A stretch of DNA of 64,000 bases. Source: Laspinema olomoucense D3b (GTDB lineage: Bacteria; Cyanobacteriota; Cyanobacteriia; Cyanobacteriales; Laspinemataceae). Positions within the stretch are counted from its first letter, which is position 1. The number at the start of each line of letters is the position of its first letter. Both the position numbers and the translations under genes were made by a program. Location: positions 1-64,000 of the forward strand of contig NZ_JAMXFA010000003.1 in NCBI RefSeq assembly GCF_025370785.1, written 5' to 3'. Shown piece by piece: positions 30,816-52,144 of this stretch. The notes beneath the pieces were generated by a model. That model saw only the letters and a program-made list of their open reading frames with translations. It was not told the origin of the DNA and made no database searches.

Positions 30816-31150
30816 GGGTCAATCCTAATGGGTTGGGTGTTAGGCGGAAAATTGATGAACTCAGGACTTACGCACAAGAAAGCAGAATTCTAACGATTGG
30901 GTCATCCCCTTAAAAATATCCTGGGGAGGTAAGTCCTGGAATTGGAGGGTTAAGATTAATTTTACCTCCTCTATTTGCTTTTTTTTATTGAGAAATTTAG
31001 GATTAAATACCCCATTCTTCAGGATTTCATCTAAGATTAAGCCCACCTGATGGTTCCCTCCCCTTCGCAAGGAGAAGGTTAGGGTGGGGTCCACCCCTTA
31101 AAAGGCAAGGATAGGTTTGTACGCTGAGGGTAATTTGCCTAAGATTAAAT

Positions 31151-31531
31151 ACACTTCCGGTCCCCTCCCCTTGGCAAGGGGAGGGTTAGGGTGGGGTTCT
31201 TCTTTGCAAGGGGAGGGTTAGGGTGGGGTTCTTCTGACGTGGCGATTCCCTACGGGATAGCTCCGCTTACCGCCACGTCACGCACTATGATACGGAATCC
31301 GGTTGTGATAGGTCTATAAAACCCCGCAGGCTGAAGCCCGGAGGCTACACGGACAAAGCCCGCCTGCGCGGGCTCAAGAGAAAACCGATTTTTACCAACC
31401 GGATTTGGTATGAACAGCGATCGCGCCTGTATGGAGGCTGGGGAACCCTCTTTCTTCCTGACGTGGCAAAGCCACCTCAGAAGGACCCCACCCTAGCCCT
31501 CCCCTTAGCAAGGGGAGGGGACCGGAAGTGT
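31151..31531. mobile_element. 381-bp element with 53-bp terminal inverted repeats
   Basis: The ends 31151-31203 and 31479-31531 are inverted copies identical at 49 of 53 positions (outermost ACACTTCCGGTCCCC). Inside are a hairpin TGACGTGGCG..CGCCACGTCA (31235-31280), a second related hairpin (31459-31479) and a nested MITE-like element (31290-31411). There is no coding capacity for a transposase, so this is a non-autonomous element or a palindrome built by successive insertions. Confidence 0.7.
31290..31411 (+). repeat. MITE-like palindromic element (copy c)
   Basis: A 122-bp copy with terminal inverted repeats ATACGGAATCCGGTT (31290-31304) and AACCGGATTTGGTAT (31397-31411), 13 of 15 pairing. 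The second hairpin AGCCCGCCTGCGCGGGCT is perfect; the first (GCAGGCTGAAGCCCGG) is rearranged relative to other copies. It helps define the ends of the family. Confidence 0.8.
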
Positions 31532-47817: not shown

Positions 47818-48857
47818 AGGGTAAAAGTGAAAAAAACCGCACCCTGAAGGGTGGGGCTATAGGAACAAAGCCCGCCTGCGCGGGCTACTTGATGAACATT
47901 GATTTTCATTGTTGGATTGGGGATTATCTGGGGCAATTATTTAGATTTATTGTTTATTTTTTTCTGGGTTTGGCAGTGGTTGCCTGTACCAATGGTATCC
48001 CCTCTCAAACCGAGGTAAATTCTTCCCTAGAATTTGCAGAAACACCCACGCGAATTGTGGCATTAGAATGGGTTTATGTGGAAGATTTGTTAGCTTTGGG
48101 AATTCAGCCGGTGGGGGTGGCGGATATTGCTGGTTATAACCAATTTGTGCAAATTGAACCCCAACTGGCGGATACGGTGGTAGATGTGGGAACCCGGCAG
48201 GAACCGAGTTTGGAAGCGATCGCCCAATTGGAACCGGATCTGATTATTGGGGTGAAGTTGCGCCATGAGGCAATTGTGGATACTCTCTCTGCGATCGCGC
48301 CTACTTTATTATTTGACCCCTATCCCGCCCCAGAAAGCGGGATTCGTCAATTGGATGAAATGGAACAAACTTTTCTCAAAATTGCCGACGTGGTGAATGC
48401 TAAACCAAAAGGCGAGGCAGTCTTGCAAGAAATGCAAGCAAAATTTGAGGCTGCCGCCCAACAGCTACAGGGGAAACAACTTGCCCAAAATCCCTTTATT
48501 CTCGGTCAATTTGTCGGGGGTGCGCCGCAAATTCGTTTGTTTAATGATAATGCAATGGCGGTGCAAATTTTGCAACAATTGGGTTTAACCAATGCTTGGC
48601 AAGGCGCGGTAGATCCATTTGGGTTTAACACCGTCTGGATTGAATCTCTGCCTCCTGTAGAAAATGCCAATTTTTTCTATAGTAAAGAAGAGAATAATCC
48701 CTATTTCAAGCAGTTAGAACAAAATCCAATCTGGAAGAATTTGGCATTTGTGAAAGAGAGTCGCTTGTACTCCATTGGTAGCGATACTTGGATATTTGGC
48801 GGTCCGCTTTCGGCGGAGGTATTTGTAGACAAGGTGGTGCAGGCAAATATGCTTTAA
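47814..48857 (+). CDS. fecB: Ferric-siderophore-binding lipoprotein with repeat-derived N-terminus
   Basis: 347 aa from the ATG overlapping fecE; an ATG at 47892 gives 321 aa and a cleaner signal peptide (hydrophobic FIVYFFLGLAVVAC, lipobox Cys). The body is a class III periplasmic-binding fold: FAETPTRIVALEWVYVEDLL, LEAIAQLEPDLIIGV, and VFVDKVVQ at the end. A MITE-like copy (47829-47927) covers the first 26 codons of the long form and also the second ATG, so in either case the translation start has been supplied or moved by the element. A long basic n-region from the long form would be unusual for a lipoprotein, so the shorter start is preferred functionally. Confidence 0.88.
   Translation: MKGKSEKNRTLKGGAIGTKPACAGYLMNIDFHCWIGDYLGQLFRFIVYFFLGLAVVACTNGIPSQTEVNSSLEFAETPTRIVALEWVYVEDLLALGIQPVGVADIAGYNQFVQIEPQLADTVVDVGTRQEPSLEAIAQLEPDLIIGVKLRHEAIVDTLSAIAPTLLFDPYPAPESGIRQLDEMEQTFLKIADVVNAKPKGEAVLQEMQAKFEAAAQQLQGKQLAQNPFILGQFVGGAPQIRLFNDNAMAVQILQQLGLTNAWQGAVDPFGFNTVWIESLPPVENANFFYSKEENNPYFKQLEQNPIWKNLAFVKESRLYSIGSDTWIFGGPLSAEVFVDKVVQANML
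47829..47927 (+). repeat. MITE-like palindromic element (copy f), at the fecB start
   Basis: Hairpins CACCCTgaAGGGTG and AGCCCGCCTGCGCGGGCT, then the tail GATTTTCATTGTTGGATTGGGGAT aligning with other right ends (shown as GATTTTCATTG and TTGGATTGGGGAT). No stop codon is introduced in the fecB frame. Confidence 0.75.
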
Positions 48858-48862
48858 CGCGC

Positions 48863-48958
48863 AAGAACCCGCACCCTCAAGGGTCTGGCTCTACGGACGA
48901 AGCCCGCCTGCGCGGGCTGGTAGAGAAAACTTACTTTTGATAATCGGATTTGGGATTA
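48863..48958 (+). repeat. MITE-like palindromic element (copy g), before fecCD
   Basis: CACCCTcaAGGGT followed by CTGGCTCTACGGACGAAGCC and the perfect stem AGCCCGCCTGCGCGGGCT; right end TAATCGGATTTGGGATTA. It fills nearly the whole gap between fecB and fecCD, and the first possible start of fecCD (TTG 48937) lies in its tail. Confidence 0.78.
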
Positions 48959-48969
48959 ATTATAGAATA

Positions 48970-51100: not shown

Positions 51101-52144
51101 ATGATGAATCAATTTTTTTGCTCGCAACAAACCGAGGGAGAGGACTTAATCGGAACGGCGGATACTGCCCCTATTTATGTATTTCTGGAATGCCCGCCCC
51201 CTTGGACGATGGAAATCTGGAATTCTCCCGCACTTTCTGAAGAATTAAAACGAGATTATCTGCAATTCAGGCAAGCAGTTCATGACAATAAATTAAATGT
51301 GCGCTTCGGCTTTATTTATGGGAATCGCCCCGGTAACACTACTAAAATCCTAATTTTCCGCAAACCTCTTGGATTCGCTTCGGGCTATCAAAAGCAAGAA
51401 TTTAATGTAAGCAATCTTGAGGCAACCCTGCCGATTTTACAAACCAATTTGTTGGGAGGTTTGCAAAAACCCGCACCCTCAAGGGTGGGTCTATATGGAC
51501 AAAGCCTGCCTACGCAGGCTCAAATAGAAAACCCATTTTTGATACCCGGAGTTGACATTAATCCAGCAGTCCCGGACCCGAAAGATATTTTAATTTGTAC
51601 TCATGGCAGTTACGATAAATGCTGTGCCAGATATGGAAATATTTTTTATCGGCAAGCCTTAGAAACCGTGGAAAATTTATCTTTAAATCAAGTCAGAATT
51701 TGGCAATGTACCCACTTTGGAGGGCATCGGTTTGCGCCCACTGCGATCGCCTTTCCCGAGGGTCGGTTTTATGGGAGACTCACCCCCGAATCCTTGACAG
51801 CAATTCTCACCCGCCAGGGAGATATTGATGTATTAGATCCCGTGTATCGCGGTTGGTCACTTTTACCCCATCCGGCTCAAATTTGGGAACGAGAATTGCT
51901 TCACCGTTTAGGCTGGGATTGGTTTAATTATAGCGTCAACTGTCAGATTTTAGAACAAGATGAAGAGAACAGCTATTATTGCCTTAAAATTGAATATCAA
52001 TCACTGGAAGGGATGATCCATTGCGATCGCCTTGAAGTGATAAAAGACCCGAATCGGGCAGTCTCACTCCATTTATCCTGCCAAAGTGACGCAGTTTCTC
52101 ACGTTTCTCCCTTTTTCCTCAAAACCTGGGCAAAAATTCACTGA
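51101..52144 (+). CDS. Sucrase/ferredoxin-like (Suc_Fer) protein with an in-frame repeat insertion
   Basis: 347 aa with a thioredoxin-like [2Fe-2S] ferredoxin fold: ICTHGSYDKCCARYGN and IWQCTHFGGHRFAPTAIAFP carry the conserved Cys and His residues; GRLTPE and YRGWSLL follow. A MITE-like copy (51446-51557) lies in frame between the N-terminal domain and INPAVPDPKDIL and adds about 35 residues (GLQKPAPSRVGLYGQSLPTQ..) with no stop codon. The insertion falls in a loop before the Cys region, so the protein could remain functional. Its place behind the importer genes suggests a redox role in releasing iron from the siderophore, which is inference. It is the last gene before tonB. Confidence 0.85.
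   Translation: MMNQFFCSQQTEGEDLIGTADTAPIYVFLECPPPWTMEIWNSPALSEELKRDYLQFRQAVHDNKLNVRFGFIYGNRPGNTTKILIFRKPLGFASGYQKQEFNVSNLEATLPILQTNLLGGLQKPAPSRVGLYGQSLPTQAQIENPFLIPGVDINPAVPDPKDILICTHGSYDKCCARYGNIFYRQALETVENLSLNQVRIWQCTHFGGHRFAPTAIAFPEGRFYGRLTPESLTAILTRQGDIDVLDPVYRGWSLLPHPAQIWERELLHRLGWDWFNYSVNCQILEQDEENSYYCLKIEYQSLEGMIHCDRLEVIKDPNRAVSLHLSCQSDAVSHVSPFFLKTWAKIH
51446..51557 (+). repeat. MITE-like palindromic element (copy h), inside the Suc_Fer gene
   Basis: Left end CCAATTTGTTGGGAGG, hairpins CACCCTcaAGGGTG and AGCCTGCCTACGCAGGCT, right end ACCCGGAGTTGACAT. It keeps the host reading frame open over its whole length. Confidence 0.8.

Follow-up and report, generated by a model that had tools for sequence, protein, structure and literature searches.

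The Suc_Fer-like gene of Laspinema olomoucense D3b examined here holds a copy of a short palindromic repeat within its reading frame, and this raises the question of how such an element can persist inside a protein-coding gene: as a segment that the protein merely tolerates, as a part that has been put to use, or as the first sign of a gene in decay. We examined the gene, the repeat family to which the copy belongs, and other coding genes that carry it. Throughout, "the window" refers to the whole stretch of DNA analyzed, 64,000 nucleotides in length, and positions are those of the window unless a contig is named.

Extent of the insertion and its empty sites

The gene is the third in the order FecB-like (Peripla_BP_2), FecCD-like, Suc_Fer-like, and its product matched PF06999 with E=5.2e-29 in a domain search. 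Among named strains, its closest relatives are found in L. palackyanum D2a and in Laspinema sp. D2d, with 80% and 77% identity in the search and 88% and 84% in the alignment, respectively. A profile search of PDB sequences yielded no match for the protein. The reading frame is open throughout, with no internal stop codon or frameshift in its 347 codons, in agreement with the first-pass annotation, which had described the repeat as running in frame through the gene without a stop. Both of the hairpins it described are also present. Coordinates of these features, and of other repeat copies in the window, are collected in Table 1.

Table 1. Features of the Suc_Fer-like locus and further repeat copies in the window.
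Feature	Position	Strand	Remarks
Suc_Fer-like gene (sucrase/ferredoxin-like, PF06999)	51101..52144	+	347 aa, in-frame insertion inside
Net insertion, 90 bp = 30 residues, GLQKPAPSRVGLYGQSLPTQAQIENPFLIP (residues 120-149)	51458..51547	+	relative to 3 congeneric orthologues
Repeat family model match, all 100 positions, 107.3 bits	51463..51562	+	
Hairpin 1, ACCCT CA AGGGT	51475..51486	+	
Hairpin 2, AGCCTGC CTAC GCAGGCT	51503..51520	+	
Repeat copy between FecB-like and FecCD-like genes	48861..48960	+	also in G003, G006
Repeat copy at 5' end of FecB-like ORF, frame A	47829..47928	+	also in G003, G006
122-bp copy with both inverted ends, ATACGGAATCCGGTT ... AACCGGATTTGGTAT	31290..31411	+	hairpin 1 region diverged

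We then compared the gene with its relatives. In all three congeneric orthologues (G003, G006, and G007), exactly 90 bp are missing, with both flanks aligned. The element had initially been placed at 51446-51557 and credited with about 35 added residues; the site and the gain in frame are as described, but those bounds are slightly too wide and the gain is 30 residues. The exact ends of the net insertion are ambiguous by a few bases, and the last 15 bases of the family model match lie beyond it, in sequence that resembles both the repeat's right end and the relatives' gene. A wider search of 59 genomes gave matches at E<=1e-10 in 18 of them. The segment was absent from 16 of 16 and 20 of 20 homologues in two wider alignments, which together comprise 34 distinct sequences (2 in common); of the 23 homologous genes listed in the search, 20 were aligned, the other three being two in G029 and one in G047. 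The first-pass annotation had asked whether homologues lack the segment and whether close strains share it: the aligned homologues lack it, and none of the three congeneric orthologues shares it. A segment that was ancestral and later lost in the relatives has next to no chance of being the explanation, as it is carried by none of the aligned homologues, within or outside the genus, and is a recognizable repeat copy.

The insertion site is a linker of varying length among homologues; the strand that follows it leads to the CTHG motif. In the homologues from G018, G030, and G048, this linker is a few residues longer, with unlike sequence. The earlier suggestion of a tolerated loop is well matched by such a site. 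An AlphaFold model built from 17 sequences left residues 119-158 unstructured, between a helix at 106-121 and a strand at 161-166, though the model of the window protein is weak (mean pLDDT 57.6) and was used for loop position only. As RNA, the site folds better than shuffled sequences (z -3.37), which is expected because of its hairpins.

The ends of the Suc_Fer copy were scored against background. Its left end retains 12 of 26 bases (background mean 10.3, maximum 15), meaning that the left inverted end is missing, and its right end retains 11 of 15 bases (background mean 7.1, maximum 11), which equals the best background match. The tetranucleotide GGAG flanks the insert on both sides, 93 bp apart, and the ancestral bases are not fixed; because this spacing does not fit a net insertion of 90 bp without further change, GGAG is no proven target-site duplication. 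With the left inverted end missing and no target-site duplication assignable, transposition is the route that we infer for this copy.

An assembly error that joined a repeat copy to the gene might be suspected, given a multi-copy repeat and a draft genome of 104 contigs. We hold this to be very improbable, as the Suc_Fer copy is distinct from all others (the best other BLAST match in its own genome is 86% identical over 97 bp, E=9.1e-26), the site is ~51 kb into a contig of 305,782 bp, and on both sides the sequence runs on as it does in the orthologues, in an unbroken frame.

A MITE-like repeat family in Laspinema

To the first-pass annotation the repeat was MITE-like, and the family bears this out. 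A 134-bp query around the Suc_Fer copy gave 47 BLAST matches in its own genome, itself included, and with a covariance model built from 45 copies the genome had at least 152 at E<=0.01, 150 of 2464 first-look candidates having been scored with the family model. At E<=0.001, the seven congeners had at least 99, at least 151, at least 105, at least 150, at least 153, at least 130, and at least 131 matches. At the same threshold and among the matches listed, six genomes of other genera in the same family had 0 to 9, G014 from another family had 84, weak ones, and the remaining eight genomes of the order had 0 to 8.

Well-preserved copies are ~122 bp long with 15-bp inverted ends, and pairs of inverted ends spanning 122 bp are found, for example, at C44:31290-31411 and C104:90749-90870. 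The end pattern ATACNRAATCCGGTT, itself drawn from copies of this family, was matched with no more than one mismatch 81 times forward and 67 times in reverse, compared to 5 and 2 times for the reversed control. It is this excess of 148 matches over 7 that leads us to call the family MITE-like, the Suc_Fer copy being one without its left end. The left end is kept (>=18 of 26 bases) in 44 of 148 copies and the right end (>=12 of 15 bases) in 80 of 148. One base pair of hairpin 2 is T-A in 26 of 45 copies and C-G in 18 of 45, with the other pairs nearly invariant. Every frame is interrupted in at least some copies. The repeat is small, multi-copy, and without coding capacity of its own, as in MITEs. 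A different palindromic repeat family, of the CCCTCCCCTTGGCAAGGGGAGGG type, occupies 31052-31531 in direct and inverted arrangement.

Two more family copies lie upstream of the Suc_Fer-like gene, on either side of most of the FecB-like gene. The copy at 47829-47928 is possibly upstream of the real FecB-like start codon. In G007, other sequence is found at the sites of both copies, and by eye its FecB-FecCD spacer contains a different hairpin-rich stretch. Rfam, at gathering thresholds, returned a single match in the window, CRISPR-DR28 at 47864-47887 (36.6 bits against a gathering threshold of 35), which looks like a chance resemblance, since the site is hairpin 2 of the 47829-47928 copy.

Coding copies and their constraint

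Reading frames running through the repeat were then sought in 148 copies out of 150 listed. An ORF was flagged if it had at least 120 codons from the first ATG, GTG, or TTG, started at least 45 bases before the hairpin core, and ended at least 60 bases after it; the tally is of in-frame copies, with gene-breaking copies out of frame standing outside it. Ten of the 148 copies were flagged, of which three were unambiguous coding cases: the Suc_Fer-like gene, a glycosidase, and an SLH-OprB porin. All three copies sit in linkers, outside recognized domains or between conserved elements, and they are read on one strand in two frames. The Suc_Fer copy reads as KPAPSRVGLYGQSLPTQ. The glycosidase and porin use another frame, A, giving the peptide (T/S)RTLKGGAxxTKPAYAG.

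The other flagged copies were set aside. Six short ORFs (C11, C21:218156, C53:5532, C28, C14:117812, and C26:88228) look spurious, with 129-174 codons between stops, and three of these are on the opposite strand. A DUF4349 protein (PF14257) at C10 is ambiguous, with the repeat upstream of a plausible later start; this in-frame copy (L238, G000:C10:157348-157447) follows the first possible start and precedes a segment that, by eye, resembles a lipobox. The ORF at C27:35700 (125 codons), flagged when 49 copies were scanned under different thresholds, was left out of the count. The FecB-like ORF went unflagged because the repeat lies too close to its first start, and it is an ambiguous N-terminal case. 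We also searched for frames A and B in G001-G005 and three other genomes. Among the matches listed, L180, which we take to be pyrF-like, and L183 carry it at their probable start or ahead of it and were left out of the count. Also left out of the in-frame count was a TPR-repeat glycosyltransferase of G002 (L182:1869-3500, minus strand), which ends inside a family copy, the match covering its last 21 residues.

Open frames are common within the family. Over the first 88 bases, 221 of 888 copy-frames (148 copies in six frames) are stop-free: 72 of 148 copies in frame C, 46 in A, 11 in B, and 45, 32, and 15 in the minus frames. We rejected the idea that one strand or frame is specially fit for coding, as chance alone would put three copies on one strand in 1 case of 4 and the three are read in two frames; none of the accepted coding copies uses frame C, the most often open. 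A copy of suitable length would have a chance of reading through of ~1 in 4, or ~1 in 12 if its length were random. Bacterial genomes consist mostly of coding sequence, and a figure of 3 in 148 suggests loss or avoidance of most insertions into genes.

The glycosidase is a 742-codon open frame in G000, the genome of the window, with a phosphodiester glycosidase domain (NAGPA, PF09992), and the porin combines PF00395 and PF04966. In both, the repeat follows a signal-peptide-like stretch (by eye) and precedes the domains. The glycosidase insert was found in two of eight Laspinema genomes, G000 and G002, and the six without it have glycosidases of 713 or 714 codons (686 in G005). The ends of this insert are inexact because the bases just to its right have diverged, and the G002 protein (L195) lacks some residues before the insert relative to that of G000 (L194). 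Trees were built for the porin, the glycosidase, and both genes joined, with gapped columns dropped. As G000 and G002 are not sisters in these trees, gene exchange or losses must be invoked, and exchange between species is possible. The porin insert is present in seven of eight Laspinema genomes and absent from G001, which branches at the base of the porin tree (support 0.93) and may be ancestrally empty or have undergone loss. The porin and glycosidase trees disagree, and we therefore give no ages. In the porin of G004 (L220), a second, different palindromic repeat, RKRPLPKPLPYEGRGFDSPPSLVGKGVGG (46 codons), is nested in frame within the first.

The seven porin carriers, in which the element is old enough for such a test, allowed the element peptide to be compared with the rest of its protein. 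The element peptide had a pN/pS of 0.68 and the part preceding it 0.54, compared to 0.12 for the SLH and barrel domains. None of the seven carriers has lost the open frame, while the element residues drift, like the neighboring linker. These data point to mere tolerance. The first-pass annotation had gone further, proposing that the family can be domesticated as a protein segment, a claim that so little constrained a peptide does not carry. That the peptide is selected as a useful part of the Suc_Fer-like protein, the glycosidase, and the porin, for example as a regulatory or docking loop, is in our judgment improbable. It would fit the presence of in-frame copies in three separate genes of one genome and the unbroken porin frame, but it sits poorly with the porin pN/pS, with peptides that are unlike between genes because two frames are read, with a Suc_Fer insert carried by only one of four close orthologues, and with the linker position of all three sites.

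We also considered whether the Suc_Fer-like gene is an early pseudogene, damaged by the insertion and open by accident. With a quarter of copy-frames stop-free, an open frame alone is weak evidence of a working gene, and the window gene has an excess of private nonsynonymous changes: private nonsynonymous and synonymous changes were 12.5 and 8.5 in that gene, compared to 1 and 9 in G003, 7 and 10 in G006, and 19.2 and 20.8 in G007. Given this higher ratio, there may be some relaxation of constraint in the window gene. Decay is nevertheless quite improbable, as the whole frame of 347 codons is undisturbed, dN/dS outside the insert is 0.26-0.31 between the window gene and the three orthologues (0.20-0.28 among those three), and the conserved stretches CTHG...CC and HFGGHRFAPT are intact in the alignment. 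Outside the insert, the gene is under purifying selection.

A probable course of events and known parallels

Survivorship is the likely account: the Suc_Fer insertion would be a rare frame-preserving event in a tolerant linker. A non-autonomous MITE-like family is spread through the genus Laspinema, and a copy without its left inverted end would have entered the Suc_Fer-like gene after its lineage split from the congeners. The 90 bp gained, being a multiple of three and free of stops in the frame entered, left the rest of the protein in register, and the landing site is the short linker of variable length that precedes the CTHG-bound strand. If translated, the protein would gain a 30-residue loop, probably disordered, and its function was probably kept, with the addition probably close to neutral. 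Gene-breaking insertions would be lost, and rare ones in tolerant linkers would persist.

A broader possibility is that this repeat has supplied Laspinema proteins with linkers time and again, with several in-frame entries into exported and redox proteins, passage between species together with the host gene (the glycosidase of G000 and G002), and acceptance of further repeats in the linker already occupied (the G004 porin). We regard this as unlikely; if true, linker growth by repeats would be an ordinary mode of protein evolution in Laspinema.

The insertion is a cyanobacterial case of a phenomenon already known from Rickettsia palindromic elements (RPEs), RU elements, and intragenic REPs. 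RPEs are described as palindromic repeats lying in frame inside Rickettsia protein-coding genes (PMC10969869, PMC3733652), with 44 insertions reported in R. conorii genes and 11 of 12 in frame in other species (PMC10969869); the same source describes in-frame fusions by intragenic MITEs as not unusual. Enterobacterial RU elements are reported as MITE-like, 103-168 bp long, with open frames and fused into annotated proteins (Delihas 2007, PMC2759123), one of them a putative exported protein (PMC2759123). Intragenic GTAG/CGTC REPs are described as short hairpin repeats in ORFs of several species, for which neutrality in flexible linkers or loops has already been proposed, and GTAG REP families are said to occur in cyanobacteria too (PMC3733652). 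Among cyanobacterial MITEs, Nezha and the Anabaena elements MITEb and MITEe are described, the latter two holding ORFs (PMC10969869).

As far as those accounts go, the Laspinema repeat is like RU elements in being a MITE-like repeat whose open frames are fused into proteins, like the REPs in placing short hairpins within ORFs, and like Nezha, MITEb, and MITEe in being a non-autonomous cyanobacterial repeat with inverted ends, in each case a likeness by description. It differs from RU elements in the phylum of its host and in the empty orthologous sites found in congeners, and from GTAG/CGTC REPs in its length of ~122 bp, its inverted ends, and its two unlike hairpins. The main text of the Laspinema genomes paper (PMC9500459) does not contain the words "repeat," "transpos," "mite," "insertion," or "mobile," and among titles and abstract openings, with subscription papers mostly outside, we found no earlier report of this family.

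The parallel drawn by the first-pass annotation with Rickettsia is apt as a way of working. Like RPEs as described, the Laspinema element is a small palindromic repeat that lies in frame in genes of unrelated function and adds a peptide to each. A large share of RPEs is reported to lie inside genes, whereas 3 of 148 examined Laspinema copies unambiguously do so, and these are read in two frames; this is a comparison of behavior. The Laspinema genome is that of a cyanobacterium living free, in which three genes contain the repeat in frame and, for two of the three, congeners have the site empty. The question posed by Rickettsia, whether the peptide is selfish or a useful part, can therefore be tested here by comparing the evolution of insert and domains. 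The RPE-like combination of an in-frame copy with empty sites was found twice, the site being empty in 3 of 3 orthologues for the Suc_Fer-like gene and in 6 of 8 genomes for the glycosidase, where the right junction has diverged.
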